Virus record (IMG/VR): IMGVR_UViG_3300043409_002659
Coordinates: 1 to 21,352 of that record
Source of the DNA: a virus
DNA length: 21,352 nucleotides
Reading direction: 5' to 3' (one strand)
A model generated the notes under the pieces. It was not told the origin of the DNA and ran no database searches. It was given only the letters and a program-made list of their open reading frames with translations. Of the stretch, positions 1 to 18,398 are shown piece by piece; the first letter of the stretch is position 1; every line of letters begins with the position of its first letter. Both the position numbers and the translations under genes were made by a program.

Positions 1-859
1 CAATTTCATTGGCAACACAATTTAAGGCACATCCTCCCCCTAACACAAGATTTTTAGATTGGGTGATTTGTTGGGCGCGAGATAGCAAATCGTGAAAATA
101 CAATTCATACACAAACTGGGTTGATGCGGCAATGTCATAGTATTGTTTCTTTGTTTTCAACTCAGGCTTCCACCAAGAACATCCACGATGAAGATTATGT
201 TTCAATCTTAAAAGGGTGTCCTCAAGAAACATCTCGTTAGGATGAATATTTTCTTCTGTTTTGAAAAAATCATGTAATATATCCAATGAATATTTTGTAG
301 GATTCCCATAAGCTGCCATACCCATCAGAATATATTCCTCTTCATTAGGTTTCAGTCCAATACGTTGTGTCATGGCAGAATACCACAATCCTAAACTATG
401 GGGATATGCAACAGTCATTTTTCTTTTAAGACTGTGCTGTTTACCATGCCAAATGGTAGTGGTATCAAACTCACCTATCGCATCAATGACTAATACGGCA
501 GCGTCCTTGAACGGTGAAGTAAAGTATCCGCCCGCCGCATGACTTTTGTGATGAGACACATATTTAATAGGGGCGACGATCCCATATCCCTTCAAATATT
601 TTTTTACATTGTTTTCATTCCATCTCCACCCTTGTCCTGAAAATAGCTGGCGCAATGTTTTTAATACGGGCTTTTCATACCAAACAATTAATTCTGGTTC
701 ACCATATTTACGAGCATCTGCAATCAAATCTACATGTAGATGCATATCATTTTTCTTTTTAGAGTACCGTTCACTCTGAGAAGCAAAAATAATGGTGTTA
801 TTATCTACTACGGTGATGGCAGCATCGTGGCTGTTAGCCGAGATTCCCCAGATTATCAT
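1..859 (-). CDS. NodU/CmcH-family O-carbamoyltransferase, N-terminal part (cut by window edge)
   Basis: The frame is open from the ATG at 859 to the left edge, giving 286 residues of a protein family normally about 550-600 aa long, so the C-terminal half lies outside the window. The N-terminus MIIWGISANSHDAA is the canonical family start with its HD pair (H11, D12). SHHKSHAAGGYF follows at about 102-113 (HxxxH metal/nucleotide site), then an IDAIGEFDTT block near D126. The visible end carries the glycine-rich GGGCALNCVANE block. Family members use carbamoyl phosphate and ATP to carbamoylate a hydroxyl, through a carbamoyl-adenylate. The start overlaps the preceding SGNH gene by 26 nt and I see no clear Shine-Dalgarno site, so translation is probably coupled. 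The position at the end of the cassette suggests it decorates the same product. The acceptor is unknown; carbamoylated glycans and modified phage DNA bases are both possible. Confidence 0.88.
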   Translation of the reverse strand, partial: MIIWGISANSHDAAITVVDNNTIIFASQSERYSKKKNDMHLHVDLIADARKYGEPELIVWYEKPVLKTLRQLFSGQGWRWNENNVKKYLKGYGIVAPIKYVSHHKSHAAGGYFTSPFKDAAVLVIDAIGEFDTTTIWHGKQHSLKRKMTVAYPHSLGLWYSAMTQRIGLKPNEEEYILMGMAAYGNPTKYSLDILHDFFKTEENIHPNEMFLEDTLLRLKHNLHRGCSWWKPELKTKKQYYDIAASTQFVYELYFHDLLSRAQQITQSKNLVLGGGCALNCVANEI

Positions 860-1754
860 GTGTTATTATTTGTAAAAAGTTTTCATCAGTGAATAAGGTA
901 TTTTCTAAATTGTCTACGAATAATTTATATCCCTTTGGGCCTGGATGTAAATGGTCTATGGCAATATCTATGCCGTCGAATTCATCGTCGTAGTCTTTAC
1001 TATTCCAATCAGTAAATGCACTACAATTATATTCAGGGTCAAAATTTTGCATGAAATTGTGACCCTCAGTAGACCATGACGTAAGTACTGACATGATTCC
1101 ATGGGATTTCAGAAAATATTTGATTAAAAAATACTGCTGAAGCCACATATAAAATGCGCTTGATGAATCTACGGCGTCAAACCATTTGTGTGATAATCGT
1201 TTTCGAACATCATCAGGATCTTCAAAGTCGGTGAATGTGCGATAAAACATATCCCAATTGTCATAGACTAATTCTTGTCTTTCAAATTCCGGGAAAAGTA
1301 TAATTACCACATCAGGTTTAATTTTTGCACCTTCGATTAAACTAAACAATATCCGAAAATAGGAAGCGGTACCTAAACTTCTTCTTCCTAGATTAAACAC
1401 AGGAATATCTATATTTAATTTTTCTTTAATTCTTTTCTGAAGTTGTGCCGGCCATGTATGTTCATATTTCACACCTTCTCCTTCCGTCATGGAACATCCT
1501 ATACACACAATTTTTTTATTGTTGGTGTGATGTGTAATAGTAGGGCCGCGAAATCCTAAAGAGTTGTATTCAGTTAATACTTCTCCATCTGCATAGGTTC
1601 GTAAAGTTTTAACGGCTTCTTCACAACCAGGTTTATATCGCTTAGGTTCTACCCAGGCAATGTCACGATATCCAACTATATCTTTAGGAGGAAATTTTTT
1701 AATATCCTTAAACTTAAACATATTGGCCTGGGTAGAAATGTCCCAACTCTTCAT
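834..1754 (-). CDS. SGNH/GDSL-fold hydrolase or acyltransferase-like protein
   Basis: 306 aa. Block I reads IGCSMTEGEGV with the likely nucleophile S88 (GCS replaces the usual GDS). NLGRRSLGTAS at 121-131 supplies the oxyanion-hole Gly/Asn region, and DHLHPGPKGYKLF near 267-279 supplies the Asp-x-x-His dyad (D267, H270). The upstream EYNSLGFRGP segment (63-71) is typical of SGNH proteins linked to surface polysaccharide loci. Such enzymes remove or transfer acyl groups on sugars or lipids; which of these applies cannot be told here. No signal peptide is visible, so it should act in the cytoplasm. The ATG overlaps the stop of the upstream radical SAM gene by 4 nt (ATGA) and follows a GAGGA ribosome site. 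It is the first of three SGNH-fold genes interleaved with radical SAM genes. Confidence 0.8.
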   Translation of the reverse strand: MKSWDISTQANMFKFKDIKKFPPKDIVGYRDIAWVEPKRYKPGCEEAVKTLRTYADGEVLTEYNSLGFRGPTITHHTNNKKIVCIGCSMTEGEGVKYEHTWPAQLQKRIKEKLNIDIPVFNLGRRSLGTASYFRILFSLIEGAKIKPDVVIILFPEFERQELVYDNWDMFYRTFTDFEDPDDVRKRLSHKWFDAVDSSSAFYMWLQQYFLIKYFLKSHGIMSVLTSWSTEGHNFMQNFDPEYNCSAFTDWNSKDYDDEFDGIDIAIDHLHPGPKGYKLFVDNLENTLFTDENFLQIITHDNLGNLG

Positions 1755-3073
1755 GATTCCTCATTACGCATTTTTTGCACTGTTTTATGTGCCTTAAATG
1801 TGTCAGGTCGAGTATCTAAGGTATGTGTATAGATTTTATCAATCGCACTTTTTTCTCCACAGGTTTCATTACAATACAACATTCCTTCAGGTTGGTCTTT
1901 ACCCCACTTTTTTTCAAACACATTCTGCAAAAAACCACTGTTTAGAATTTCCTCTAGGGTATTGTTATGCAGAGTTATTTTTTCTAATCCGAATTCTTCA
2001 ATCGCCAAACTCATCTGTACCGAACCAAATGTGTCAAAGTTAGCAACGTAATGCGTTGCAACATAACAGCATGGAAATACTCTACCATATGCATCGACAT
2101 AGATTTCATGTTTCGTCATGCTAGGCACAGATGATAAATGACTTTTACAAATAATACTCGTACACTTCTCAGCTTCCTTGGGCTGATAGGTTTCTAGCAT
2201 GTTTAAATATTTTTGTTTCTTTGTTTCATTATTATATTCAATATTATTTTCTAGATAGTTTACGTAGCTCGTTGCGTCGAAATTCAAATCACATATAGAT
2301 TCTAATGTTTTAGCTGTACCGTCGATAGAAGAAAAGTTTGTATTTTCTAACGACGGAGGTTCAATTGTATATGCATATGATCCATCAGTATTTCTAACTG
2401 TCTTTCCTATAAGGATTCCCTCTCCTACGGTTGCAGGCTGAAATCCTAATGCTTTCTTAGGCACGAAGTATCGAAATCCTATGGATTGAGCCAACATTGC
2501 TGCTTCTTCAACTTGATGTTCGTTGTGTTTAAAAATCAAGTAGTCCCAGTAAGCTGTGCCTCCGGCTGCAATAAACGCTTTTGCATTAGTGATTGCTTTA
2601 TTAAATGACACATTTCTTCTATACAAGTGATTGGTATCTTCTAATCCGTCAATTGAAAAAGTGACATGCCTTGTTGTATTGGGTCTAGAGGTTGCATTAA
2701 TTTGTAAAACTTTAGCAAGGTCATGCCAGAACTCACTTGTTCTCATACCTCCGTTCGTATTAAAAAATACAGACGACCCGTGGGTGCAAACATATTCAGT
2801 AATTTTTAAAACGTCCTTATTCATCATCGGGTCACCGTGCGTGCCACAAAAAATCCAACTAACAATATTTTTGGCTACCTCGGGCGGAAACCATTTTATA
2901 AAATTTTCGTAAGTTATAGATTCAAGTTTTAAATCCGGTCTCACAACAGGCAAAGAGCTGCCATCAGGAACAGCTATATGCCGCGGACACATGGGACATC
3001 TCGCATTACAATGCGTAGACAGTTCCATGTGCACCTGATTTACAGTTTTAAAATTCCACTTATATTCCGTCAT
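1751..3073 (-). CDS. Radical SAM protein with C-terminal SPASM/twitch-like cysteine region
   Basis: 440 aa. The radical SAM cluster motif is C22-x3-C26-x2-C29 (THCNARCPMCPRH), close to the N-terminus. FCGTHGDPMMNKD (75-87) occupies the GGEP-like SAM-binding position. A C-terminal cysteine set (C304, C309, C335-C336, C401, C405, including RVFPCCYVA and CNETC) looks like a SPASM or twitch auxiliary Fe-S domain. Known SPASM enzymes modify peptides, proteins or sugars through a 5'-deoxyadenosyl radical. This protein differs from its four neighbours, which have the auxiliary cysteines ahead of the core. It overlaps the upstream gene by 14 nt and the downstream SGNH gene by 4 nt. The substrate is unknown. 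Confidence 0.88.
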   Translation of the reverse strand: MTEYKWNFKTVNQVHMELSTHCNARCPMCPRHIAVPDGSSLPVVRPDLKLESITYENFIKWFPPEVAKNIVSWIFCGTHGDPMMNKDVLKITEYVCTHGSSVFFNTNGGMRTSEFWHDLAKVLQINATSRPNTTRHVTFSIDGLEDTNHLYRRNVSFNKAITNAKAFIAAGGTAYWDYLIFKHNEHQVEEAAMLAQSIGFRYFVPKKALGFQPATVGEGILIGKTVRNTDGSYAYTIEPPSLENTNFSSIDGTAKTLESICDLNFDATSYVNYLENNIEYNNETKKQKYLNMLETYQPKEAEKCTSIICKSHLSSVPSMTKHEIYVDAYGRVFPCCYVATHYVANFDTFGSVQMSLAIEEFGLEKITLHNNTLEEILNSGFLQNVFEKKWGKDQPEGMLYCNETCGEKSAIDKIYTHTLDTRPDTFKAHKTVQKMRNEES

Positions 3074-4292
3074 TATTTTCTACCATTAATTGATGAATTT
3101 CTGGGAAGTATTCTTCAAACTTCTGATTTCTATACAAGTCACTCGCCTTGGTGAATTTTTTGAAATCATTCCAATGTTTCTCATTATACGCACCATTCGT
3201 AATGAATTGTAAAACACTTTCCAAGAATACATTTTCTGCTATCAACGGAGTGAGTTTTTCAACGACCTTTTCTTTAAAATAATTGGGCATGTATTGAATG
3301 TTGTAGTATTCAGGATAATGAATTAGGTTTAAATAGAGGGTCAGCTTCCCGTCATTGAATTGTGCATTTTTTTGTTTAACATACTCAATCATTTTATCAA
3401 TATAAAACACATTTAACGGACTTAAAGTCATACACACGCACATCTGACCATTATCATTATCTAAACAATACTGATACCAACGATCCACATTGGCATCTAC
3501 AACATCCCAATCCGACGGGTATCGGATGTATTTGGCGTGATTTTCTAATCCATCAATACTGAACGCCATATCTACCTTCTTAAATTTTTGCAAGTGCGAA
3601 ATATGTTCAGCAGGCCATATAGTACAGTTAGTATTATAATGCAGTATTTGGTTTTTGGCATAATCATTATCAGAACAGAATCTAATAAACTCCCACTGCT
3701 TCTTGATTAGAAAAGGTTCTCCACCATAAAAGTCTAAAAACTCTACGGTTGGCGCGGCCTTATGCACACTTTCCCAAAAGGGAGAATCGGCATCATACAG
3801 CACTGTATATTGTGTTTGTTGCTTTAAAAAACTTTCCCACGTAACATGTGGATTATTGTCCTTATACTTCAACTCAAAGTATTCTCGTATCCACTGACTG
3901 CTGCTCCATGGACTACATGTTCTGCACTTAATATTACAGGTGTTACCTAAATTTAATTCAAGAATTTTTAATTCATTCTCGCTGTTGAACTTTTTTACTT
4001 GATTATCGCGTACTCTCTTACTGCTTCTACCTGATGCCTCCTCGTCCCAACATTTTTTACAACCAGCATCCTTAATACCATTTCTAAGATTTTCTCTAAC
4101 TCTGTTGATTGCAGGCGAGATAAAAATTTCTTGTAAACTGTGTTTGTCTACATTATATAAGTTTTTATTTTCATCCATCAAGGATTCTTCAACCATACAA
4201 CAAATTCTAACATCACCGCTAGTACCTACAGTGAGACTGTGTTCGGCATTCACACACCAGGTATGTTTGTTATTTTCATTTATCATTTTCAT
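3060..4292 (-). CDS. Radical SAM protein with N-terminal twitch-like cysteine module
   Basis: 410 aa. An N-terminal module of about 110 residues carries C13, C31-C32 and C78/C81 (ICCMVEE and GCKKCWDEE). The core then begins with the cluster motif C119-x3-C123-x2-C126 (GNTCNIKCRTCSPW). FYGGEPFLIKKQW supplies the SAM-binding GGEP motif and FSIDGL follows further on. The cysteine pattern of the N-terminal part (C, CC, CxxC) resembles a SPASM/twitch domain moved ahead of the barrel. Layout and motifs match the gene at 8713-9825. The start has two ATGs two codons apart (4292 and 4286); both overlap the upstream gene. The reaction is not identifiable from sequence. Confidence 0.88.
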   Translation of the reverse strand: MKMINENNKHTWCVNAEHSLTVGTSGDVRICCMVEESLMDENKNLYNVDKHSLQEIFISPAINRVRENLRNGIKDAGCKKCWDEEASGRSSKRVRDNQVKKFNSENELKILELNLGNTCNIKCRTCSPWSSSQWIREYFELKYKDNNPHVTWESFLKQQTQYTVLYDADSPFWESVHKAAPTVEFLDFYGGEPFLIKKQWEFIRFCSDNDYAKNQILHYNTNCTIWPAEHISHLQKFKKVDMAFSIDGLENHAKYIRYPSDWDVVDANVDRWYQYCLDNDNGQMCVCMTLSPLNVFYIDKMIEYVKQKNAQFNDGKLTLYLNLIHYPEYYNIQYMPNYFKEKVVEKLTPLIAENVFLESVLQFITNGAYNEKHWNDFKKFTKASDLYRNQKFEEYFPEIHQLMVENNDGI

Positions 4293-5685
4293 ACTCGTCG
4301 TAAACAGTTTTGCAGAAATTTTTAAATTCTACATATTCAGGAAATGTTTCATCAAAATTTAACCCACGGCGCTCGTCATATTCATTAAAGAACACCCAGA
4401 AATCTCGGCGCCCTCGTTTAATTAAATCATCAGTCAAATGAGGATGAGCTGCGGTGTTTAACGGAGTTTTCATGTAATCAGTAACTCGTTTCCATTTTTC
4501 AATCTCAACATCATTGAACCATTGCGGGTTGTCTTGTAAAAATTTCATGTTGTCGTCCATGTATGTATGAAACGATTCAGGCAGAATATTAATCATCCAA
4601 TGAGGGGGTTCTTTCAAGTATGGGGTATCGAAAGCAATTCTTCCCACACCAAACTCTTTTCTCCACTCAATAATTTTTTCAAATAACATCTGAAAATTAG
4701 TAACACATAGCACATTAAACGTACACATGAAATTTATTGTGGCTTGCGGAAACATGTGCAAATAGTATCGTAAATTACGTTCCCAGTGTGCACAATCTAA
4801 ACCGCCGCGCATATATTCTGCCTTTTCACCCCAGCTATCTATGGATGTAAACAGTGTAAAACTCTTGATTTTCTTTTCGTCTAACAACTTACGTATTTTG
4901 TCAATCGCTGTATCAAACTTTTCAAAGCTGATACCCATGTTAGAATTCATAGACAAGTTCAACCCGGGAGCAGGCTCCTGGTCTAGTATATCTAAAAAGC
5001 GATAAGTGGGAGGATTCATCAAAGGTTCGCCGCCCGTCAAACGAAGTGTGTGTAAGTCATTGCGCAGACTTGGCCACCATTTCCAAAAGGCATCAACGTA
5101 GGGATTTTCTTCGCGTGGAGAATAATAACTTTTTCCATGTCCATCAGGTAGTTGTCTATGCAAAAACTCAATACCATACTGATTGTACGTCAAATCATAA
5201 TTCCCATGTTTCTTGATTTCATCCATCCATGAGGTAGATGCCTGTGGGCAACAATACCCACATTTAAAATTGCATGCATTACCAAAACTTAATTCAAGAT
5301 ATCGGGGATTAACATCAGCATCCCATGGGGTTTGTGCTATTTTTTCAATTAATGGTTCAGCAAAGTCGCTTGCACTGTGAATCATTCTGTCGCTAATGTA
5401 ATCGGGTCCAAGATTTTCCACATTCCAGCAATAGTAACATTCTTCTGGACGAACACCTGTTAACATTTCTTTTCGGCGTTCTTTTTTCCATTGAGTGTTA
5501 TGTAGAGCAGCAGGATTAGCCTCAATTTCATGTAGAGGAATATGTTGTGGGCGAGGATGATAGCAACTATGATTATCACCTGTGTGTAAATATAGTGTTT
5601 CGTGCAACCACTTCATGGCACACAAACTAGGACTCACGGCATTCAGTTTATCACGGGTTTTTTTAATAAATTCAACATGACTCAT
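4276..5685 (-). CDS. Radical SAM protein, paralogue of the one at 6535-8055
   Basis: 469 aa. The N-terminal region has C22, C41 (SCYHP) and C83/C86 (CYYCW), followed by an ISDR segment. The core cluster motif is C138-x3-C142-x2-C145 (GNACNFKCGYCCPQ), and LTGGEPLMNPPT supplies the GGEP motif. The N-terminal cysteine module, the spacing and the final FFNEYDERRGLNF segment all recur in the gene at 6535-8055, so the two are a tandem-duplicated pair separated by an SGNH gene. The ATG at 5685 overlaps the SGNH stop by 4 nt and has an AAAGGA ribosome site. Alignments by eye in both halves support paralogy; the substrate is unknown. Confidence 0.87.
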   Translation of the reverse strand: MSHVEFIKKTRDKLNAVSPSLCAMKWLHETLYLHTGDNHSCYHPRPQHIPLHEIEANPAALHNTQWKKERRKEMLTGVRPEECYYCWNVENLGPDYISDRMIHSASDFAEPLIEKIAQTPWDADVNPRYLELSFGNACNFKCGYCCPQASTSWMDEIKKHGNYDLTYNQYGIEFLHRQLPDGHGKSYYSPREENPYVDAFWKWWPSLRNDLHTLRLTGGEPLMNPPTYRFLDILDQEPAPGLNLSMNSNMGISFEKFDTAIDKIRKLLDEKKIKSFTLFTSIDSWGEKAEYMRGGLDCAHWERNLRYYLHMFPQATINFMCTFNVLCVTNFQMLFEKIIEWRKEFGVGRIAFDTPYLKEPPHWMINILPESFHTYMDDNMKFLQDNPQWFNDVEIEKWKRVTDYMKTPLNTAAHPHLTDDLIKRGRRDFWVFFNEYDERRGLNFDETFPEYVEFKNFCKTVYDEYENDK

Positions 5686-6542
5686 AAAATTTTTTCCTTT
5701 ATTATATGTGCGATTATTTGGGCAAACTCATCGTGGGCTTCCTTCACAAAATGTCCGCCGGGCATGTGTTCTTTCATATTACTTATGAAAGGTATACATT
5801 CAGAAAGGCCTGAATTTTCGTATAATGTTTTAAATGTACTGTTATTTTTGTCAGCACAAAAATTGATTATATCTGTGAATCCATGAATGGCTACAAAAAT
5901 AGGAGGAATTCCTGTTTGATTTATAATAAAGTTGCGCAATAGTGTAATACTGTTTAGGTATCTAACCAGCATGCCGAAGTAATCTTCTCGGCGCAAATAA
6001 TATTTTGTAAAATTAATAAATTCTTCTGAATTGTTCAATATAGGATCAAACGGCATTTTTTTTAGGAAATCAGGTAAAAGTATAGATTTATCATATCCAG
6101 TTGTGTTATAGTATCTGTTATTTTTGTTAAATGCATCTTGAGCATTATGGCTATGGAAAAAAGTTATTCTATCGGGTGCGGTTAGCTGCACTACCGCCAA
6201 ATCAACATTAATTCCTTTTTCTTTTAAGTTTAAAATATCTACTACAGTTCGATGGGTCATTGCTTCTTGCGCTGATCCTCCTGTTGCACTGTTCAAGAAA
6301 TTTATATTAAGGATCTTCGCTACCGAATTAGGCCAAGCTCTTTCATACTGCAAGTCAATATGTTTTTCGTAATCACGCTGACTCAACTCATTAACTGTCG
6401 ATTTCATAAATGCAGTATATTCTTTCCAAACTTCCATTGAACTTTTAGATTTTCTACCTGGCCAACTGAGAAACATATCGTCGGCTAGTTCTGTTCCTGC
6501 AGTAAAACTATCGCCTGTAAAATATATAAATGGTTTAGACAT
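5682..6542 (-). CDS. SGNH/GDSL-fold hydrolase-like protein
   Basis: 286 aa. The N-terminus runs straight into block I, FTGDSFTAG, with the nucleophile S12. NFLNSATGGSAQE (81-93) fits the block II/III Gly-Asn region, and GGHFVKEAHDEFA near 262-274 offers the C-terminal histidine. There is no signal peptide, so it should act in the cytoplasm. It lies between the two paralogous radical SAM genes, overlapping one by 8 nt and the other by 4 nt, which implies joint expression. Beyond the catalytic blocks it shares little with the other two SGNH genes of the cassette, so they may act on different substrates or steps. Esterase, deacetylase or acyltransferase activity cannot be distinguished. Confidence 0.77.
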   Translation of the reverse strand: MSKPFIYFTGDSFTAGTELADDMFLSWPGRKSKSSMEVWKEYTAFMKSTVNELSQRDYEKHIDLQYERAWPNSVAKILNINFLNSATGGSAQEAMTHRTVVDILNLKEKGINVDLAVVQLTAPDRITFFHSHNAQDAFNKNNRYYNTTGYDKSILLPDFLKKMPFDPILNNSEEFINFTKYYLRREDYFGMLVRYLNSITLLRNFIINQTGIPPIFVAIHGFTDIINFCADKNNSTFKTLYENSGLSECIPFISNMKEHMPGGHFVKEAHDEFAQIIAHIIKEKIL

Positions 6543-8055
6543 ACTTTATTAGTGTAGGGAATGTAGTGTTAAATGATTTATTTCTACGTTTATCATATTC
6601 ATTAATAAAATATATGAAATTTTTCTTGTTTAATTCGTATTCAGAAGTATTTAGTGGTTCTTCCATGACAGCTATATCACGCTTTAATTTTAAAATTTCA
6701 TATGGTTTGAATCCTTCGAAGGTGCGTGAATAATTTTCATCCTGAACATGTTGTTCCATGAAGATTAATACCTTTTTCACTTCTTCTATTTCAGAAGATT
6801 TTGCGTTTTGAATGCTGAACCAATTAGGATATCTTAAAATTGGAATATCGAACCAAATTCTTTGGAATCTTTTCAATTCATACGGAGGATGTATGATATT
6901 ATCTGATGGCGGAGGAGTAAAGATAATTCTTTTTTGATTTTTACCACCAAACTCTTTTCGAAGTTGAAGTATCAATTCCATGAATTGTTGCAAACTTGGA
7001 ATACTAAGCAGATTAAATGTATTGATGAAACTAATACTAGTATGATGTGTTTCACTTAGAAAGGTTCGAATATTGTTCAATAATCTTTCATAGTGTAGGC
7101 CATCGCGCATATACTCTGCTTGTTCTCCCACTCCGTCAAGACTAATAAACAGCATAAAATGTTTATAAGCAGGTGCAACATATGCATGATTACCGGAATT
7201 TTCATTAAAATTTTCAGGATCATCCCATACACGTATTTCTTCTAGCTTCTTTACCTTGTCTAGAAAAGTATCAAATAATTTCTGGTCAGGAGGACAAAAA
7301 TTACTCGTTATACTTAATTCAAGTTGACCGTGAGGATTTTCATTTACATAATCAAGAATCTTAAATGTATTTTTATCCATTAATGGCTCGCCGCCTGTCA
7401 TACGGAAAACACGCAGTTTTCTATATATTTCAGGCCACCATTCCCAGAATGCTTGTACATATGGATTTTCTTTGGAAGAAATTTTTAAAGGCATCATTCC
7501 ATTTTTTTCCAATGCCGAGATATCATTATGCCCATGGTCGTGTAGTTTAAATGGCCCATGTGTTTCAATATCCTCTTGCCATGCGGTACTAAGATGTGGA
7601 CTACAATACATGCATTTAAAATTACATGCTTGATTAAAATTTACCTCAACATATCGAGGTGCTCCGGACCAACTACTTCCATCCGCAACAATTTCATCAA
7701 ACGCAGGAGCTGCCCACCATTCACTGCTACGATAATGTCGGTCGCTTATGTGTCCCTTAGGATCTTCACTTTTTGCATCCTCAATTTTCCAGCAATATGA
7801 ACATCCGTCTGGGCGCTCGCCCTTCATCATTTGTTCACGTTCAGCAATTTTTATTGGTGTATTATGAAGAACACCTGGATTATTTTTCAATAATTCTACA
7901 GGAATAGAGTGAGTTGGAGGATGATAGCAGCTTTGTGTTCTTCCTTGTGGGAGGTGTAAACTAACTTGAAGCCATTTTGCTAAACACAAAGAAGGACTAA
8001 CATTATTTAATTTATCGCGCATTAACTGTGCACGGTCACCATACTCAGCCGTCAT
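6535..8055 (-). CDS. Radical SAM protein, paralogue of the one at 4276-5685
   Basis: 506 aa. The N-terminal module has C24, C43 (SCYHPP) and C85/C88 (CSYCW), then GHISDR. The core motif is C144-x3-C148-x2-C151 (QACNFKCMYCSPH) and MTGGEPLMDKNTF is the SAM-binding motif. The C-terminal part contains FINEYDKRRNKSF, matching the paralogue. It is about 37 residues longer than that paralogue, mainly in the segment after the SAM motif and near 380-420. The ATG at 8055 overlaps the upstream sulfotransferase-like stop by 11 nt; an internal ATG at 8022 (MRDKLNN) would line up with the paralogue's conserved start region, so the first 11 residues are less certain. A consensus promoter lies about 56 nt upstream inside the preceding gene. 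Confidence 0.87.
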   Translation of the reverse strand: MTAEYGDRAQLMRDKLNNVSPSLCLAKWLQVSLHLPQGRTQSCYHPPTHSIPVELLKNNPGVLHNTPIKIAEREQMMKGERPDGCSYCWKIEDAKSEDPKGHISDRHYRSSEWWAAPAFDEIVADGSSWSGAPRYVEVNFNQACNFKCMYCSPHLSTAWQEDIETHGPFKLHDHGHNDISALEKNGMMPLKISSKENPYVQAFWEWWPEIYRKLRVFRMTGGEPLMDKNTFKILDYVNENPHGQLELSITSNFCPPDQKLFDTFLDKVKKLEEIRVWDDPENFNENSGNHAYVAPAYKHFMLFISLDGVGEQAEYMRDGLHYERLLNNIRTFLSETHHTSISFINTFNLLSIPSLQQFMELILQLRKEFGGKNQKRIIFTPPPSDNIIHPPYELKRFQRIWFDIPILRYPNWFSIQNAKSSEIEEVKKVLIFMEQHVQDENYSRTFEGFKPYEILKLKRDIAVMEEPLNTSEYELNKKNFIYFINEYDKRRNKSFNTTFPTLIKYV

Positions 8056-8716
8056 ATGACTTTACCCTAGTTCGTAATATTTTATAATCACATTCATATA
8101 TCTTGCTTATAATATAATCAATCTCTTGTAACATGTCAATGCTTTCAGGTGTAATTACAACCTTCTTCATAGGTAACGCGGCTGCAACTCCTCCTAGCTT
8201 ATCTTGCGTAAAATGTGAGAGATCGTACATGTCTAATATATGATATTCGTCGGGCGAAAATCCTGTATATTCAAAATACGTAATAAGAGGTGTTGTATGT
8301 GTATCAAATTGTAATAGGTTCTGTAGTTCGTCAATAGTATACTGCCTTAAAAGAAAAAGTATGTTTTCTATCATATCTTTTCTAAAAGATAGGTGTTTAT
8401 ATGCAACGGTGTACAACTCATTATACGCAATCCCGTATTCTACCTTGTCTTTGAACTGTTCATATACAAACATATTGTACCAGGCAATAAATCTATCTAT
8501 GGGGTCTCGATAAATAAAAATTTTTTTGTATATTTTTTCGTTGTGTAATATGTCATTATTGGAATCGTCTGAAATTTTCAATTTTTTGTATTGGTGTTTC
8601 TCAAAAAGAAGCTGATCAAGATATCTTGAAGCGCACTTGTTTGCTGATACTACCAGTATACCAGGAGGAGTCGAAAGATATGCTAAAAATTCAGGAAAAG
8701 GATGAGTAATTTTCAT
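8045..8716 (-). CDS. Sulfotransferase-like protein
   Basis: 223 aa from the ATG at 8716. Near the N-terminus ILVVSANKCASRYLDQLL (20-37) resembles the PAPS 5'-phosphosulfate loop with K27 and S30, and IFIYRDPIDRFIAWYN (66-81) resembles the 3'-phosphate motif with R70 and D71. These are the two defining blocks of sulfotransferases that take sulfate from PAPS. No transmembrane segment is visible. An upstream GTG at 8740 would add 8 residues, but the ATG at 8716 makes the 4-nt ATGA overlap typical of this operon and is preferred. It sits between two radical SAM genes, suggesting sulfation of the cassette's product. The acceptor is unknown, and a role other than sulfate transfer is possible. Confidence 0.72.
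   Translation of the reverse strand: MKITHPFPEFLAYLSTPPGILVVSANKCASRYLDQLLFEKHQYKKLKISDDSNNDILHNEKIYKKIFIYRDPIDRFIAWYNMFVYEQFKDKVEYGIAYNELYTVAYKHLSFRKDMIENILFLLRQYTIDELQNLLQFDTHTTPLITYFEYTGFSPDEYHILDMYDLSHFTQDKLGGVAAALPMKKVVITPESIDMLQEIDYIISKIYECDYKILRTRVKSYDG
8111..8139 (-). promoter_or_regulatory. Intragenic sigma70-type promoter (TTGACA-N17-TATATT)
   Basis: On the minus strand TTGACA (8139-8134) is followed after exactly 17 nt by TATATT (8116-8111). It lies inside the 3' part of the sulfotransferase-like gene, about 56 nt before the start of the radical SAM gene at 8055. The same hexamers with the same spacing occur at two intergenic sites, near 14.45 kb and 18.65 kb. It would give separate early transcription of the left part of the cassette. 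Confidence 0.6.
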
Positions 8717-9825
8717 ACTAGCTCTTGTAGATGTGGCCACAATTCAACGAACTTATATTTTTTTGCGTGATAGATGTTTTCCAAGTTTTCATGAAAAATT
8801 CTTATTTGGTCTTTTTGTATCTCTGAATCGTCCTTTAGTAAAGAGTTTTTTAACATTGACAAAGTATCTAAGTCTAAATTTTTTCCATTTCTTAACAGTA
8901 CCTTATTAATTTCTTCAATCGCCAAAATACGAAATTTCTTAGGTAAGTAATTGACATTGAGTTCTACAGGCCCTTCAATCTTTTGCCACCCCACTTCAAT
9001 ATTGTTTTTCTCAATAAAATCGTAGTATTCTTCAAGATTAAAAGCAGAATATACGCAGTAGAGAGGTCTGGCAACTATTTTTGAGTTTGGAAATTCTTTT
9101 TTAATAAGGGATAAATTATGAGAAAATTTATCCCATGATGCATTATGTCTCACATATTCAAATTTCTTACCTACAGTCTCAAAGCTGAGATGAAAGGTTA
9201 CATACTTAAAACATTTTAGCTTTTCGTAAATTGGGTTACCTTCTAACTGTGTACTTAAATTGGTTAGGAACAATATAGAACAATCAGAATTTAAATTCTC
9301 TAACAACTCAATATTCCTTTTTTGTAAAAAAGGTTCCCCGCCTAAACATAGCACGTGCCTTATTTCCTCTGCTTTATCTTTAATATATGACATAACTCCG
9401 TCATTATTTCTAGGAGGTGTTTGATATTCTTTTTTAATGGAAGCCCAAACCGAACTAAAGTATGGCATACAATAGTTGCAGGCTAAATTGCATGTATTAT
9501 CCCACCGAACGTCAAGCATGTCAGGGGTGTGATACAAGATATTATCCTTATAAAATGCATGATTTTTAAACTCTTCCTGTGTCCTGTGCCGTTGACTTTC
9601 AACCCCGCGGTCTTCTAGTTCCTTACACAGGCCACAATTTTTATGCCATTCCCCCTTTAAAATGGTATTTTTAATATCTAATAATTCATCACCTTTAAGA
9701 ATTTCTTCTATTGTGTTTTGTTGTAGATCGCCTAAATTGACCCGGCCCGCACAACACGTTTTGATTTTACTATCAGGACCTATAAAAATTTGCTTCCAGG
9801 GCTCTGCACAGAAATTATTGGTCAT
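8713..9825 (-). CDS. Radical SAM protein with N-terminal twitch-like cysteine module
   Basis: 370 aa, the shortest of the five. The N-terminal module has C6 (NNFCAEPW), C24-C25 (KTCCAG) and C64/C67 (NCGLCKEL). The radical SAM motif is C112-x3-C116-x2-C119 (DNTCNLACNYCMPY) and LGGEPFLQKRN is the SAM-binding motif. The pattern C-CC-CxxC followed by CxxxCxxC is shared with the gene at 3060-4292. The FCxxPW start is typical of SPASM/twitch segments in other radical SAM families. Start and stop form 4-nt overlaps with both neighbours. No precursor-peptide gene is visible beside it, so peptide modification is unproven. Confidence 0.88.
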   Translation of the reverse strand: MTNNFCAEPWKQIFIGPDSKIKTCCAGRVNLGDLQQNTIEEILKGDELLDIKNTILKGEWHKNCGLCKELEDRGVESQRHRTQEEFKNHAFYKDNILYHTPDMLDVRWDNTCNLACNYCMPYFSSVWASIKKEYQTPPRNNDGVMSYIKDKAEEIRHVLCLGGEPFLQKRNIELLENLNSDCSILFLTNLSTQLEGNPIYEKLKCFKYVTFHLSFETVGKKFEYVRHNASWDKFSHNLSLIKKEFPNSKIVARPLYCVYSAFNLEEYYDFIEKNNIEVGWQKIEGPVELNVNYLPKKFRILAIEEINKVLLRNGKNLDLDTLSMLKNSLLKDDSEIQKDQIRIFHENLENIYHAKKYKFVELWPHLQELV

Positions 9826-10796
9826 ATGGAAGGGAATTGGGTAGAATAATTTAAATAATTTAAATTACCAAACTTTAAAAAATTTGCAGTTCTAGCTTGT
9901 TTTTCTTTACTTAAAGAATTATTTTGTATAATCTCGTCTATTCCTGGCTCCTTAAATGCAATATACCTTTCTTCAAATTTTCCTGTGTGAAGTATATCTA
10001 GAAAAATTTTAGCGAATGCACATTGTGTTGCTTTAGACATATGATTTTTACAATCACTTCCATGCTTAGATGTGGGTTTGATATTGAAATAATTAATATA
10101 TTTGGCAGTTCCTTTCTCATTCCACTCTGTGGGTATTGCTTCATCAGAGATAATAATATTTTTATCCTTATCATCTAAAAATTGTATAGTTGAGATATCC
10201 CACAGTGCAATACTACCTAGTAAATTTGGTACGTTAAAGTTATAGGTATTATAAAAATGTTTGTAATGTTCCGAGAAAAATCTTTTCCGATTAAAACAAT
10301 AAATAAAAATTGTGTTCTGTTTACTGAACAACCTCTCAACCATATAATTATCTTGAATATGCACTATTTCTGAATTGAAAAGTCTTTCCATATACTTAAA
10401 TCCAATTTCTTTGTACATATTAAGATTTTCGTTAGACACCACCGCGTTATTTGTGCAAACTAATATTGATTGGTCTACGTTAATTCCAGCTACTATGAAC
10501 AAATCATCATTTATATAAATTCTGTCGCTACCTGTAATCAAAAAAATGTTTAAACAATTTTCATCATAGTACTTTGTAAAGAGTGATATTGTTCGTAAAT
10601 TAGGCGAACCAACATAACTGTAATTTAATACAGGTATACCCAACTCCTTGGCGATTAATCCGATCCATGTTTCTTCATCACTATAATGCCCATAGCTATC
10701 ACCAAAAATTTGTAACGCCTTAGGAGTTTTACCCTGAGAAACAAAATTGGTGACGTACATATCATGAATGTATTTTCTATACTCGGCGTTAGTCAT
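9822..10796 (-). CDS. SGNH-fold hydrolase-like protein
   Basis: 324 aa. Block I is LQIFGDSYGHYSD with S34. NYSYVGSPNLRTI (58-70) supplies the Gly/Asn block, and a C-terminal NHMSKATQCAFAKIF segment gives a candidate catalytic histidine. The catalytic Asp two residues before that His is not obvious, so activity is less certain than for the other two SGNH genes. There is no signal peptide. The ATG at 10796 is preceded by AGGA at good spacing and overlaps the upstream methyltransferase-like stop by 4 nt. The protein is Asn/Lys/Tyr-rich, reflecting the low GC of this region. Confidence 0.68.
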   Translation of the reverse strand: MTNAEYRKYIHDMYVTNFVSQGKTPKALQIFGDSYGHYSDEETWIGLIAKELGIPVLNYSYVGSPNLRTISLFTKYYDENCLNIFLITGSDRIYINDDLFIVAGINVDQSILVCTNNAVVSNENLNMYKEIGFKYMERLFNSEIVHIQDNYMVERLFSKQNTIFIYCFNRKRFFSEHYKHFYNTYNFNVPNLLGSIALWDISTIQFLDDKDKNIIISDEAIPTEWNEKGTAKYINYFNIKPTSKHGSDCKNHMSKATQCAFAKIFLDILHTGKFEERYIAFKEPGIDEIIQNNSLSKEKQARTANFLKFGNLNYLNYSTQFPSI

Positions 10797-11401
10797 TTAT
10801 ATCCTAAACTCATGTAACGTGTGAATTGTGTGCAATCCAATGACCCAGAAAATAAAGTATAGGAGAGAGGATTGTGGTTGGTGAATTCTTGCAACGTGGG
10901 GAAGCATCGGACATGTTCTATACAGGAAAAGTAATTATTGCCTTGTAGTATTACTGGGATATGTACAGGCACATTCACTAACCAGGAGTCAAATACTTCC
11001 TGTGATACATGTTCTGTAGAGGTATTTATTACTAAGGATGGCACGTAGTATGAAGAATATGTCTCCATGTCATCGCATACAAAGGTAATTCGACTATCAT
11101 CATTAGATAATTTCTTGCCCATCTCAATACACTGAGGATCTTTGTCAATGGAAATGACGTTGACATTTGGAAAATTATCAACAATCATCTGGGCTAATAT
11201 TCCATACCATCCTCCAAAAATATACACATTACCTGGTGGAAACCAACACCCCCAGCCATAGGTGTGCAGGATATTGACAAGCCATGCCTTACTATTCAAT
11301 TGACTTGCCCAAAAATTTTCTAAAATGCGGTAATTATCAGGATTTTCTCGGATAACATTCATCCAATCTATTACCCGATGGTGTGAAATCACATTTCTCA
11401 T
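10793..11401 (-). CDS. Class I SAM-dependent methyltransferase-like protein
   Basis: 202 aa. VYIFGGWYGILAQ (59-71) fits motif I of a Rossmann methyltransferase and VISIDKDP (82-89) provides the acidic residue (D86) that binds the SAM ribose. ITFVCDDMETYS and LVINTSTEHV (123-132) fit the following strands. The first Gly-rich loop is reduced compared with the usual GxGxG, so SAM binding is inferred, not proven. It ends in an ATGA overlap with the SGNH gene and follows a 38-aa gene, making it the first sizeable gene of the AT-rich cassette. The methyl acceptor is unknown. Confidence 0.66.
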   Translation of the reverse strand: MRNVISHHRVIDWMNVIRENPDNYRILENFWASQLNSKAWLVNILHTYGWGCWFPPGNVYIFGGWYGILAQMIVDNFPNVNVISIDKDPQCIEMGKKLSNDDSRITFVCDDMETYSSYYVPSLVINTSTEHVSQEVFDSWLVNVPVHIPVILQGNNYFSCIEHVRCFPTLQEFTNHNPLSYTLFSGSLDCTQFTRYMSLGYK

Positions 11402-11404
11402 ACA

Positions 11405-11521
11405 TCAGCGATAAATGAAAGGATCTCTTTTCTTCATTTCCTGTAATCTACGCTTAAATTTATAATTTTCTAATCTTGCAAGAAGCCAATCGACTATTTT
11501 ATCTAAAATTTTCAGTGTCAT
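11405..11521 (-). CDS. 38-aa basic protein of unknown function
   Basis: This short gene fills what would otherwise be the gap between GuaC and the methyltransferase-like gene. The product begins MTLKILDKIVDWLLARLEN, an amphipathic helix, and ends in a basic tail RRLQEMKKRDPFIYR. The ATG at 11521 overlaps the GuaC stop in an ATGA, and GGAG lies about 11 nt upstream. The clean protein-like composition and the coupling make it a likely real gene. I recall similar small proteins ending in a DPFIY-like motif from marine phages, but only loosely. No function is assignable. Confidence 0.6.
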   Translation of the reverse strand: MTLKILDKIVDWLLARLENYKFKRRLQEMKKRDPFIYR

Positions 11522-12534
11522 ACTGTGTATTGCTCCAAAGAACGGTTAAGTTGGGTGTTAACTTGAATGAATTGTGCCTTTTCAGACATTTCTGAGATAT
11601 TTATAGCGCCTATATAGGCACAGGTTGAACGAATTCCCCCCAAAATGTCGGAAATGGTGTGTTCCACCAGCCCTTTATACGGGATTTGCACCACGCGCCC
11701 CTCGGAAGCCCGATAATTCTTCACTTGATTGTGTTTTTGTTGGGCAGCATGACTACTCATCCCATAAAAAATCACTTTTCCATCCCGAATTTCTTGTTCC
11801 GACTCGTCATGCCCCGCAAACATGCTACCAGCCATCACCATTTGGGATCCAGCTGCGAATGCTTTCGAAAAATCGCCGGGATTCACACATCCCCCATCAC
11901 TTTGCACACCACCGCCCGACTCCGCCGCAGCAGGAACACACTCCATCAACGCGGAAAACAAGGGATATCCAACCCCCGCCATGCGGCGTGTCGTACACAC
12001 CGCCCCTGTTCCAATACCAATACGAGCTAAATCAGCGCCTGATTCAATTACTCGGCGTGTTGCTTCAGGTGTTGTGACAGTTCCTGCCATGATGAAGGCA
12101 TCGGGTATGTTAAATCGTACTTTCGTGATGAAATCATAGAAAGGATTCATGTATCCGTTTGCCACATCAATGACAATTTTCGGGGTGAACTTTGATACGC
12201 GGTCTTTCCAAACTTTTACAATACTCATGGCTTTCTGTAATTCTTCTTCATTCATGCCAATGGTGATGAAAGCATGGCTGACATCTTTTTGTTCCAGCCA
12301 ATCTCTCAACACATGATGCTTGGTGATGGCAGTAAACATACCAAACTTTTTTAATGAATGATGCATACTAAATGTCCCAACACCATCCATGTTGGCGGCA
12401 ATGATGGGAACACCCGTGATCTGGGCGCCGTGACATCCTTGCAATGTTGTTGTCAAATCAACTTGACTGCGTGAAGTGATGTCAGAAAATTGTGGCACAA
12501 TCAACACATCATCAAAATCCAATTTTGTCATCAT
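11518..12534 (-). CDS. guaC: GMP reductase (GuaC)
   Basis: 338 aa, close to the usual ~345 for GuaC and without the CBS domains of most IMP dehydrogenases. The enzyme reduces GMP to IMP and ammonia with NADPH. The N-terminus KLDFDDVLIVPQ and the catalytic loop GIGTGAVCTTRRMAGVGYP with C180 are clear. SDGGCVNPGD (212-221), FYGMSS (256-261) and YRASEG (274-279) follow, and the last two distinguish GMP reductase from IMP dehydrogenase. ILGGIRSTCAYIGA closes the barrel. The ATG overlaps the dsbA-like stop by 4 nt and AAGG lies just upstream. With the PurA gene at 17036-18058 it would give GMP to IMP to adenylosuccinate, a G-to-A route useful to an AT-rich phage. Whether it also takes dGMP is unknown. 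Confidence 0.93.
   Translation of the reverse strand: MMTKLDFDDVLIVPQFSDITSRSQVDLTTTLQGCHGAQITGVPIIAANMDGVGTFSMHHSLKKFGMFTAITKHHVLRDWLEQKDVSHAFITIGMNEEELQKAMSIVKVWKDRVSKFTPKIVIDVANGYMNPFYDFITKVRFNIPDAFIMAGTVTTPEATRRVIESGADLARIGIGTGAVCTTRRMAGVGYPLFSALMECVPAAAESGGGVQSDGGCVNPGDFSKAFAAGSQMVMAGSMFAGHDESEQEIRDGKVIFYGMSSHAAQQKHNQVKNYRASEGRVVQIPYKGLVEHTISDILGGIRSTCAYIGAINISEMSEKAQFIQVNTQLNRSLEQYTV
11598..11605 (-). promoter_or_regulatory. Possible T4-type late promoter box TATAAATA
   Basis: The exact T4 late promoter octamer TATAAATA occurs on the minus strand within the 3' end of guaC, about 77 nt before the 38-aa gene that opens the AT-rich cassette. An octamer of this composition is expected by chance about once or more in such a window, so this is only suggestive. 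Its location at the cassette boundary is the reason for listing it. Confidence 0.22.
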
Positions 12535-14438: not shown

Positions 14439-14467
14439 AATATAACACCCTATTATGTAGTTGTCAA
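14439..14467 (-). promoter_or_regulatory. Sigma70-type promoter (TTGACA-N17-TATATT) upstream of uvsE
   Basis: On the minus strand TTGACA (14467-14462) is separated by exactly 17 nt from TATATT (14444-14439). The -35 box lies in the last codons of the QueC-like gene. A start site about 7 nt after the -10 would leave a leader of roughly 20 nt before the uvsE ATG, with its GAGG site. It is identical in boxes and spacing to the promoters at 8111-8139 and 18639-18667. Confidence 0.8.
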
Positions 14468-15025
14468 GTCTTCCATTTCGCATTGTTTGAATGCCCACGC
14501 CCGTTCCCTACATTGCCAACAAACAGTACACCTGCCAATTGCTTGTTCAGTACATGTATGTGTGAGTGATAGTAAATCCAGTAGATTATGCGTCAAATAT
14601 AGTTGAACAATATCTATTTTAGTTAAATGAAATAGTGGATATTTAACCGTATGGTGGGGATGTTTCACTCTAATAGGTCCTCCTGGCAATTCATTTTCAG
14701 GATAGATGTTATCTCCAACATAAAAAACATCAGCTAAATTGTGTCGAATAACACGGGTTAATGCATCTCCTATAATTCTATCATGGGGCAAATTTGGATT
14801 TCCGATAATAATAGGATCATTTATAGATATGTGCAATCTGTTGGAAATCCAGTTTACTATAGGTTGGACATACAAGGAAGCTCCATCATGCTTGGCAACT
14901 GTAAAAGGTTGAATACATGATGCAGCTTCTTTTGTTACAAGATATAACATTAATGCACTGTCCATTCCGCCTGACAATAGAACTCCTATTTTTCTATTAG
15001 ACGGATGTACAAAATTCATTGACAT
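14453..15025 (-). CDS. QueC-like PP-loop ATPase (7-cyano-7-deazaguanine synthase family)
   Basis: 190 aa, somewhat shorter than cellular QueC (about 220-230). The PP-loop GVLLSGGMDSALML has S18-GGMDS-23. The C-terminal cysteine cluster C158, C166, C169, C172 (CTEQAIGRCTVCWQCRERAWAF region) matches the zinc site of QueC. QueC turns 7-carboxy-7-deazaguanine into the nitrile preQ0 with ATP and ammonia, for tRNA queuosine or deazaguanine DNA. No FolE, QueD, QueE, QueF or DpdA/transglycosylase gene is visible here, so either the partners lie elsewhere or the enzyme acts on another carboxylate. The start is an ATG next to the stop of the 38-aa basic gene (TAATG), with no clear ribosome site. Confidence 0.75.
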   Translation of the reverse strand: MSMNFVHPSNRKIGVLLSGGMDSALMLYLVTKEAASCIQPFTVAKHDGASLYVQPIVNWISNRLHISINDPIIIGNPNLPHDRIIGDALTRVIRHNLADVFYVGDNIYPENELPGGPIRVKHPHHTVKYPLFHLTKIDIVQLYLTHNLLDLLSLTHTCTEQAIGRCTVCWQCRERAWAFKQCEMEDLTTT

Positions 15026-15286: not shown

Positions 15287-15425
15287 TATAACTCTCCATG
15301 TTAGGTAGTCCACTATAGTTACAAATTTGTTCTGGAATTTCCTGCTTAAATATCATATCCCAATTACTTTCAAATCTATCTCTGTTTACACTTAATGGTC
15401 TAGGGGTGTCTCCTTTTCCATTCAT
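15201..15425 (-). CDS. Small phage protein starting MNGKGDTPRP
   Basis: 74 aa. The N-terminal half (KGDTPRPLSVNRDRFESNW and DMIF) matches a small protein family I recognise from many phages, with a conserved KGDxPRP start and an NWDxIF segment. No function is known to me. The C-terminal 28 residues share DNA with the 43-aa gene and look less protein-like (hydrophilic, Gly/Asp/Arg-rich). The ATG at 15425 overlaps the upstream sulfotransferase-like stop by 4 nt and has GGAG 7 nt before it. The overlap means one strand segment is read in two frames. Confidence 0.72.
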   Translation of the reverse strand: MNGKGDTPRPLSVNRDRFESNWDMIFKQEIPEQICNYSGLPNMESYNAPERNKTHSGEHPRGDEDGNRIGQKSC

Positions 15426-16066
15426 TTTATTTCTCCAAAATATTCCACTGACAATGTATCATATAAAGAGTGAAAATCATGTGCATCGTGTAACATATCT
15501 TCATCTGATATTTCAAATGGAGTATACCCGTGTTTACTTTTCATAACGGGCAATTGTAAAGTTTGTTGTACTTCATTTGGATTATTTATGATAAAAGTAT
15601 CCGTGAACTGATAATCACATTGCTGTTTAAATGTCATATGACGAACATAGTAATCAAATCGTTGTAATATATCTTCTTTCGTAATTACAACTGTTGCTTT
15701 ATATCGCTGTCGGGCATACTTGTTACCAAACGTGTCCGTCTTTTTTGCCACCAATACCTTTAACACCTGCTTCCGTAAATCGCTGGGTTCAATAAACACC
15801 GTCTTATACTCAGACTGTAAAATTCTATCTACCATTGAAAAATCATGATTGGAGATAATTTTAATCAATGGCAGGGGAGTTTGCTGCATGATAGTTGCAA
15901 ACGTCATCTCAATTCCTTCGGGGGTGGTGTACCGAGGATTGAAAGTAGAAAATTTTGATGTGTGTTGATTTATTACAACGCGAGGTTCTATCATTATTAA
16001 ACTATTAAATAATAGTTCATGTGCGGAAGTGGACGCAGTGCGAGGCAAAGAAATGATGCAATACAC
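15422..16066 (-). CDS. Sulfotransferase-like (P-loop PAPS-binding type) protein
   Basis: 214 aa. The extreme N-terminus MYCIISLPRTASTSAHELL holds a PRTxST loop (8-13) like the 5'-phosphosulfate-binding segment of sulfotransferases, and FIEPSDLRKQVLK (91-103) fits the 3'-phosphate region. The rest does not match a family I can name. The start is GTG at 16066, sharing a base with the DUF2061 stop (TAGTG); no other start would keep the N-terminal loop. It follows the APS-kinase-like fusion and the DUF2061 gene, so a sulfate-activation link is plausible. Transfer to another phage- or host-made molecule is inference. Confidence 0.6.
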   Translation of the reverse strand: MYCIISLPRTASTSAHELLFNSLIMIEPRVVINQHTSKFSTFNPRYTTPEGIEMTFATIMQQTPLPLIKIISNHDFSMVDRILQSEYKTVFIEPSDLRKQVLKVLVAKKTDTFGNKYARQRYKATVVITKEDILQRFDYYVRHMTFKQQCDYQFTDTFIINNPNEVQQTLQLPVMKSKHGYTPFEISDEDMLHDAHDFHSLYDTLSVEYFGEIK

Positions 16067-16275
16067 TATTCTTTATCTAAACCAAAAGTAATGTTATTAT
16101 ACCACACTCGTTCGTGGAAATAATACAACACCATTTTAGTAAACACCTCAACCCCGCCAATCGACAATCCCAGTTTCCAATTGCCCGTGAGTACTCCAGC
16201 AATCAACATAGTGTCTATTGTCCCCAATATGCGCCAACTAATCGCCTTCATGACATGTCGTTTACGTTGAACCAT
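16066..16275 (-). CDS. DUF2061 membrane protein
   Basis: 69 aa. The sequence follows the DUF2061 pattern: KAISWRILGTIDTMLIAGVL at 10-29, a second hydrophobic stretch, then GGVEVFTKMVLYYFHERVW ending in the HERxW signature. Two membrane segments are likely (about 17-33 and 36-53). The biochemical role of DUF2061 is not known; in bacteria I associate it with sulfate-assimilation genes, which fits its place between an APS-kinase-like gene and a sulfotransferase-like gene. The ATG overlaps the kinase stop by one base (TAATG) and GGGG lies 6 nt upstream. Confidence 0.87.
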   Translation of the reverse strand: MVQRKRHVMKAISWRILGTIDTMLIAGVLTGNWKLGLSIGGVEVFTKMVLYYFHERVWYNNITFGLDKE

Positions 16276-18058: not shown

Positions 18059-18077
18059 AATATACCCCTGGATGAAA

Positions 18078-18398
18078 TTATGCTGAGAAACTTGACCCGC
18101 ATCCACACCCGCCCGAGGCGTTGGGATTTTTAAATGTGAATCCAGATTCAGTCAATGTTTTGACATAATCCAATTCGGCACCTTCAAGATATTGCGCCGA
18201 AAAAGGATCAACTAAAATTTTCACATCCTCAGACGCATCAATGGTCCAATCATCTTCCGCGGCGGCATCTTCTAACAGAAGTGTATATTTAAATCCTGAG
18301 CACCCGCCAGGCTGCACGCCCATGCGGTAATGTTGAACATCCTGCTCCTTATTGGCGCGGAGTTCGGTAATGGCATTATCTGTTACGTGAATATTCAT
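18078..18398 (-). CDS. IscA/HesB-type Fe-S carrier protein
   Basis: 106 aa, normal length for the A-type carrier family. The three conserved cysteines are C33 (PGGCSGFKY), C98 and C100 (GGCGCGSSF). Such proteins hold and deliver Fe-S clusters to target enzymes. The five radical SAM proteins encoded downstream each need at least one cluster, so a phage-borne carrier would fit; IscA-like genes are also seen in other marine phages. The start ATG shares a base with the zinc-finger stop (TAATG), so the two are co-translated from the promoter at 18639-18667. Confidence 0.92.
   Translation of the reverse strand: MNIHVTDNAITELRANKEQDVQHYRMGVQPGGCSGFKYTLLLEDAAAEDDWTIDASEDVKILVDPFSAQYLEGAELDYVKTLTESGFTFKNPNASGGCGCGSSFSA

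Follow-up and report, generated by a model that had tools for sequence, protein, structure and literature searches.

A radical SAM gene cassette in a T4-like phage and its candidate role in glycan tailoring

What do five radical S-adenosylmethionine (rSAM) proteins, three SGNH-type proteins, a sulfotransferase-like protein, a methyltransferase-like protein, and a carbamoyltransferase do in a phage, and do they do it together? The question is raised by the viral record IMGVR_UViG_3300043409_002659, whose 21,352 bases constitute the window (i.e., the whole stretch of DNA that was analyzed), and in which eleven open reading frames (ORFs) for these proteins occupy positions 2-11401 on the minus strand. 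A sequence-only reading had proposed that they act as a set, in an undescribed phage system. We read them as a single exchangeable cassette with which a T4-like phage tailors a glycan and give this reading a probability of about 0.5; that the substrate is a glycan is a part that we infer.

Composition and integrity of the cassette

Working from position 11401 down to the window edge, the gene order is MT, SG3, RS5, ST, RS4, SG2, RS3, RS2, RS1, SG1, and CT. The eleven genes are consecutive and, as had been claimed, overlap at all ten of their ten junctions; counted upward from the window edge, the overlaps are 26, 4, 14, 17, 4, 8, 11, 28, 4, and 4 nt, and an alternative ATG start for ST at 8716 gives a 4-nt overlap. 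Overlaps of 4-28 nt at every junction suggest a single transcript with translational coupling. The GC content of the cassette is 0.32-0.38; elsewhere in the window it ranges from 0.35 to 0.50 and mostly lies around 0.40. Close relatives retain the cassette genes in order, with a ratio of nonsynonymous to synonymous substitutions (dN/dS) far below 1, which is better than chance.

Each of the five rSAM proteins (RS1, 1751-3073; RS2, 3060-4292; RS3, 4276-5685; RS4, 6535-8055; RS5, 8713-9825) carries the single CxxxCxxC cluster first noticed in it, and the Pfam Radical_SAM domain (PF04055) was found in all five (E of 7e-8, 4e-6, 1e-5, 4e-3, and 3e-10 for RS1 to RS5, respectively), only RS1 (33.2 bits) and RS5 (41.2 bits) passing its cut-off. 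The NCBIfam model NF033640 (N_Twi_rSAM), with a curated cut-off of 170 bits, identifies RS2, RS3, RS4, and RS5 as N-terminal-twitch rSAM proteins (301.7, 315.8, 295.4, and 231.1 bits); RS1 did not pass it (47.8 bits), and its C-terminal region is of the SPASM type (PF13186, 20.9 bits, narrowly below the cut-off). RS4, the core member, has relatives on 97 viral contigs, and its AlphaFold2 model, with a predicted local distance difference test (pLDDT) score of 87, matches rSAM folds. Cysteines C144, C148, and C151 (RS4 numbering) and the auxiliary C24, C43, C85, and C88 are invariant in 12 diverse members, and CxxxCxxC is present in 417 of 417 long rSAM proteins, for which the same motif also served as an inclusion filter. 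The rSAM clusters are not degenerate: the motif is kept, as are all four auxiliary cysteines at the N-terminus.

The remaining enzyme types are less evenly supported. CT (2-859) encodes the N-terminal 286 residues of a NodU/TobZ-type O-carbamoyltransferase (PF02543, Carbam_trans_N, E 8e-39; phrog_1601), bearing out the NodU-type start seen in the sequence; a full-length relative has 484 amino acids, and the C domain of CT falls past the window edge. All three proteins named as SGNH keep the motif residues, a block I GDS/GCS serine and a C-terminal histidine being retained across diverged alleles, and SG1 (834-1754), an SGNH/GDSL-type hydrolase or acyltransferase, is the only one with a Pfam match (PF00657, 27.1 bits against a cut-off of 23.6). 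Most SG1 relatives retain GCS...N...DxxHPG, one short relative being without the C-terminal part. SG2 (5682-6542) and SG3 (9822-10796) are fast-diverging alleles; the former keeps a GDSFTAG-type motif and the C-terminal histidine in four relatives that are 27-31% identical, and the latter keeps GDSxGH and NHxS in the L001 and L002 alleles at 34-39% identity. The ANKCxS and RxPxxRF motifs of the proposed sulfotransferase, ST (8045-8740), are likewise kept in all relatives, but its match to Sulfotransfer_2 (PF03567) is 19.8 bits against a gathering cut-off of 22, and that of MT (10793-11401) to a class I methyltransferase family (PF13649, E 0.0025) is also sub-threshold. Thus, at the sequence level, CT is identified by its N domain as a carbamoyltransferase, SG1 is confirmed as GDSL, and RS2-RS5 as N_Twi_rSAM, whereas SG2, SG3, ST, and MT are putative assignments from motifs or sub-threshold matches. 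IMG/VR scans with SG2, SG3, and ST found no relatives beyond those within RS4 loci.

A slot that exchanges radical SAM sets for sugar genes

Contig L012 (124 kb) has the same backbone as the window and encodes a T4-type terminase, tail sheath, baseplate wedge, gp32-like single-strand binding protein, and T4-like DNA polymerase; the window is thus from a T4-like myovirus. The lineage backbone comprises IscA, a PurA-like protein, a kinase, QueC, UvdE, an amidase, and GMP reductase. MT adjoins GMP reductase across the lineage (in the window, the 116 nt between them are the only gap), and MT and CT are the conserved flanks of the cassette. The interval from MT to CT/ligase varies between lineage phages, with 22 compositions among 35 loci, some of which are cut short at contig ends. 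It holds up to 8 rSAM genes, or glycosyltransferases with nucleoside diphosphate (NDP)-sugar epimerase and dehydrogenase genes: five rSAM genes, three SGNH genes, and CT in the window and L002; seven to eight rSAM genes in L012; six in L106, together with SGNH, glycosyltransferase, and UDP-glucose-dehydrogenase-like genes; one or two, with glycosyltransferases and several NDP-sugar epimerases, in L086 and L094; and glycosyltransferases with a dehydrogenase and an amidinotransferase in L119. The labels EPIM, UGD, AMDT, and CYT of sister-cassette genes are our own sequence readings; the UGD family gave a 48% match to the annotated UDP-glucose dehydrogenase of HTVC008M, a cultured Pelagibacter phage.

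Because the whole cassette, or single parts of it, is swapped for sugar-building gene sets between the same MT and CT/ligase flanks (glycosyltransferase, epimerase, UGD, and amidinotransferase genes), decoration of a surface sugar chain is the most likely function, and this is the first ground for the glycan reading. The set had earlier been held apart from capsule- and lipopolysaccharide (LPS)-type loci, a distinction that the contents of this slot in relatives do not sustain; the accompanying statement that sugar-nucleotide genes are absent is correct for the window cassette but not for the same slot elsewhere in the lineage.

The sister cassettes also bear on whether the product is instead a small molecule or secreted natural product, such as an aminocyclitol- or aminoglycoside-like compound that would be made by rSAM, carbamoyltransferase, amidinotransferase, and aminotransferase chemistry and would act on competitors or the host. 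They contain amidinotransferase, DegT, and CT genes, and aminocyclitol antibiotic tailoring uses similar gene types (BtrN is a twitch rSAM). However, glycosyltransferases dominate them, the window cassette is without a scaffold-forming or export gene, and near-identical phages differ in content, which would be odd for a defined compound; we consider a natural product quite unlikely.

Gene order, allele swaps, and selection

Clustering of 434 rSAM proteins at 45% identity gave 63 subfamilies, whose order was kept in 271 of 279 pairs (97%, from 50 distinct array orders); pairs were scored if seen together at least four times, and the unit is the distinct order, not the independent evolutionary event. 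Further phage groups (L038, L048, L052) have the RS4-RS3-RS2-RS1 set as well, and in L261 and L262 it is found with RS2 and RS1 inverted or split by another rSAM gene. At least one further rSAM gene lies nearby in 72 of the 80 RS4 loci, which contain RS4 by construction, and in 21 of the 22 RS2 loci that were fetched independently. The genes are therefore not single in unrelated places, and the proposal that they act as a set stands, given intact active sites and rSAM subfamilies that co-occur in fixed order in many phages. These data bear equally on the idea that there is no joint pathway at all, only a hypervariable island gathering unrelated moron genes: the content is strongly variable, but the fixed subfamily order across lineages, the overlapping genes, and the recurrence of the RS4-RS3-RS2-RS1 order in unrelated phages make such an island highly improbable.

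The window and L001 have nearly identical backbones, with a synonymous divergence (dS) of 0.07 for GMP reductase, 0.21 for MT, and 0.11 for RS3; RS4 has a dS of 0.94, and SG3, RS5, ST, SG2, and RS2, in the same order in both phages, are only 32-59% identical and at or near synonymous saturation. Saturated genes within a nearly identical backbone indicate that old alleles replace single genes. Purifying selection acts strongly on both RS3 and RS4 (dN/dS 0.012-0.076); RS3 has values of 0.012 and 0.073 and is 95-99% identical in close relatives. Mosaic allele swapping of this kind would be the pattern expected of surface structures; together with the 97% consistency of rSAM order and the activity of the twitch rSAM enzyme BtrN on an aminocyclitol (PMC9012708), it is a further ground for the glycan reading.

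If the cassette does tailor a glycan, its four N-terminal-twitch proteins and one SPASM protein, supplied by Fe-S carriers of the host or the phage, would edit sugar residues during infection by oxidation, epimerisation, or other means. Acyl, sulfate, methyl, and carbamoyl groups would be attached or taken off by the SGNH proteins, the sulfotransferase, the methyltransferase, and the carbamoyltransferase. The target would be in the first place a host polymer of the LPS/O-chain type and in the second a virion glycan, with chains provided by the host or by phage glycosyltransferases encoded elsewhere. Allele swapping would then alter the decoration and, with it, phage receptors, competitor exclusion, or recognition; the individual reactions, their timing, and the biological purpose are, like the substrate, what we infer. 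An A-type Fe-S carrier of the IscA/ErpA family (18078-18398, minus strand; PF01521 E 2e-21, TIGR00049 over its cut-off), encoded 7 kb from the cassette, possibly supports the five Fe-S enzymes.

Tail genes, bacterial relatives, and known systems

In half of the RS4 loci the rSAM array lies near tail genes, small glycosyltransferase-like genes are present in most, and the fetched flanks of 65 of the 80 contain a glycosyltransferase or sugar gene. In other phages, tail genes, two GTb genes, and one GTa gene come before the rSAM array. The GTa model (pLDDT 82) resembles GT-A enzymes, led by the PBCV-1 capsid glycosyltransferase, with HddC also among the top matches (probability 0.99, E about 1.5e-3, low TM-score); the GTb profile matched glycogenin weakly (E 0.011), and family c4, which has no database match, is putatively GT-B on our own reading of its C-terminal motif. 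PDB profile searches with GTa and c4GT gave no matches. The glycosyltransferases beside the tail fibres of L012 are of DXD, family-2, and Anp1 types. Four contigs (L176, L216, L218, L245) assigned by binning to Flavobacteriales, Neomarinimicrobiota, and Rhodobacteraceae look like phage contigs, with either the tail-GTb-GTa-rSAM order or a short contig made up entirely of cassette. Sugar-gene neighbors of the rSAM arrays and RS4 loci, of the HTVC008M carbamoyltransferase, and of some bacterial rSAM loci are the remaining ground for a glycan.

The position of the arrays is also what favors the main rival, in which twitch and SPASM rSAM enzymes would alter tail-fibre or other virion polypeptides in the manner of maturases of ribosomally synthesized and post-translationally modified peptides (RiPPs), epimerising, cross-linking, or oxidising side chains, and the other enzymes would decorate the same protein. 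In many phages the array is directly behind tail genes, including one whose fibre-like product carries an autoproteolytic chaperone domain, a Peptidase_S74 chaperone protein is also encoded in Bdellovibrionota loci, and the best fold match of RS4 is the peptide-modifying rSAM enzyme SuiB. In the window lineage, however, the cassette is far from tail genes, one slot exchanges whole rSAM sets for glycosyltransferase and NDP-sugar genes, and both the latter and the NodU-type carbamoyltransferase indicate sugars. Nor was a short precursor peptide gene found beside the rSAM genes of the cassette, whose junctions leave no free coding space, in line with the earlier statement that this is no standard RiPP locus. 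We hold virion-protein modification to be rather unlikely.

Bacterial relatives were sought with an RS3-type alignment in 84,980 species genomes, and the matches were mainly in Bdellovibrionota; because only RS3-type patterns were used, other bacterial relatives are under-sampled. Strong family-model matches were obtained in 20 of 78 Bdellovibrionota genomes, compared with 3 of 299 from the comparison phylum, and one Bdellovibrionota genome had 33 N_Twi_rSAM matches at E up to 0.001. Genomes of this predatory group (G019-G024; L253-L257) have N_Twi_rSAM arrays of 7 to about 15. A recurring Bacteriovoracaceae locus combines an ABC-2 exporter pair, two GT-B genes, a NodU-type carbamoyltransferase, a Peptidase_S74 protein, N_Twi_rSAM genes, and, in some cases, DegT; the DegT and carbamoyltransferase relatives are Pfam-confirmed. 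The locus occurs in L217, L233, L235, and L240, where the short Peptidase_S74 chaperone-domain protein resembles phage tail fibres. Many Bdellovibrionota loci (L185, L192, L198, L214, L230, L240) have, next to rSAM genes, a family of 300-340 amino acids with the motif W(F/L)RNS...SDxD, which is possibly nucleotidyltransferase-like and has no Pfam match. An alphaproteobacterial locus contains RS3-RS2 with SGNH and CT at 44%. Arrays in which as many as ten different N-terminal-twitch rSAM proteins follow a set order might constitute a modular glycan-editing line common to T4-like phages and predatory Bdellovibrionota, with one modification per subfamily and module swaps changing phage surface identity; we offer this only tentatively, as somewhat unlikely.

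DNA hypermodification, in which the cassette enzymes would modify bases of the phage genome, must also be weighed against these relatives. Carbamoyl, glycosyl, and rSAM-dependent base modifications occur in other phages, the window has a QueC-like gene, and a relative has QueD and QueE. Bacterial homologues are nevertheless chromosomal, some beside polysaccharide exporters, and near-identical genomes vary in cassette components while the backbone is constant. Moreover, although QueC and nucleotide genes are nearby, no hydroxymethyl-pyrimidine or comparable nucleotide pathway was found among the eleven genes, and we regard this explanation as very unlikely.

Several observations weigh against a glycan. 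The window cassette itself contains no glycosyltransferase or NDP-sugar gene, and no glycan genes are evident next to several of the rSAM arrays of Bdellovibrionota. A test for a trade-off between rSAM and glycosyltransferase numbers in the slot gave no significant anticorrelation (rho -0.18, p 0.43). The best fold matches of RS4 act on a peptide (SuiB), a nucleotide (viperin), and a nucleoside sugar (BlsE), all at low TM-scores, so that the search confirms the rSAM fold but does not identify a substrate. Finally, no assigned reaction or biochemistry for the N_Twi_rSAM family was found in the literature.

The cassette was called undescribed, and this requires qualification, as multi-rSAM T4-like phages are on record, albeit without a function. 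Zaragoza-Solas et al. (2020; PMC7029224) reported rSAM cassettes, to which no function was given, in the host-recognition islands of pelagimyophages, T4-like as is the window; the window cassette occupies a second slot, from GMP reductase/MT to CT/ligase, is free of glycosyltransferases, and combines five rSAM genes with SGNH, sulfotransferase, MT, and CT genes. Like the window, the T4-like environmental virus TARA_ERS488813_N000010 has many rSAM genes (12) and an A-type Fe-S carrier in one genome (PMC5332604; mSphere 2017), and the passage concerned reads them as Fe-S metabolism without reference to array order or glycan-locus context. In HTVC008M, a Nol/NodU-type carbamoyltransferase accompanies a methyltransferase, glycosyltransferase, UDP-glucose dehydrogenase, and 2-oxoglutarate oxygenase, and the cluster lies near a gene of the same "ferredoxin" family; unlike the window, this stretch has no annotated rSAM genes, and its carbamoyltransferase is 25% identical to CT. 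No RS4 relative was detected in cultured phages by tblastn. The nearest cultured relatives are one to several N-twitch-like rSAM genes of the Vibrio phages KVP40, nt-1, and K566 (22-25% identity), one of which, in KVP40, is near a PF00534 glycosyltransferase; these genes are not in a contiguous array with SGNH, sulfotransferase, and carbamoyltransferase genes. Bdellovibrionota arrays share the rSAM family, and some adjoin an ABC-2 exporter, GT-B, NodU-type carbamoyltransferase, and DegT, but they are chromosomal and have other gene orders. Within the reach of our searches, what is new is the exchange with sugar-gene sets in one slot, the mosaic of alleles, the conservation of rSAM order, and the connection to Bdellovibrionota.

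Islands with which phages alter surface sugars are known, but we found none in whose description radical chemistry has the main part. If our reading is correct, the rSAM tailoring arrays of T4-like phages are unusually large, allele swapping serves these phages to diversify a surface sugar, and they have an rSAM enzyme family in common with predatory bacteria. With the fixed rSAM order and with Vibrio phages in culture, an N_Twi_rSAM reaction becomes testable.

Other genes of the window are recorded for completeness. A QueC-like gene is at 14453-15025, and relative L170 encodes QueE (11363-12280) and QueD (16238-16753), which would amount to a 7-deazaguanine route in the lineage. Outside the cassette, 15422-16066 encodes a second short sulfotransferase-like protein with an SLPRTAST loop and no Pfam match. 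The ORF at 16275-17063, conserved in the lineage, fuses a P-loop kinase of marginal adenosine 5'-phosphosulfate (APS)-kinase similarity to a nicotinamide mononucleotide (NMN)-adenylyltransferase-like domain; a 3'-phosphoadenosine-5'-phosphosulfate (PAPS)-synthase role was not adopted, as APS_kinase only just clears its Pfam cut-off, the second domain resembles NMN adenylyltransferase, and none of the specific NCBIfam models reaches its threshold. The ORF at 17036-18106 encodes an adenylosuccinate synthetase that might serve 2-aminoadenine DNA, that matches both the PurA and the PurZ NCBIfam models below cut-off and whose GDTGKGK motif keeps the aspartate.

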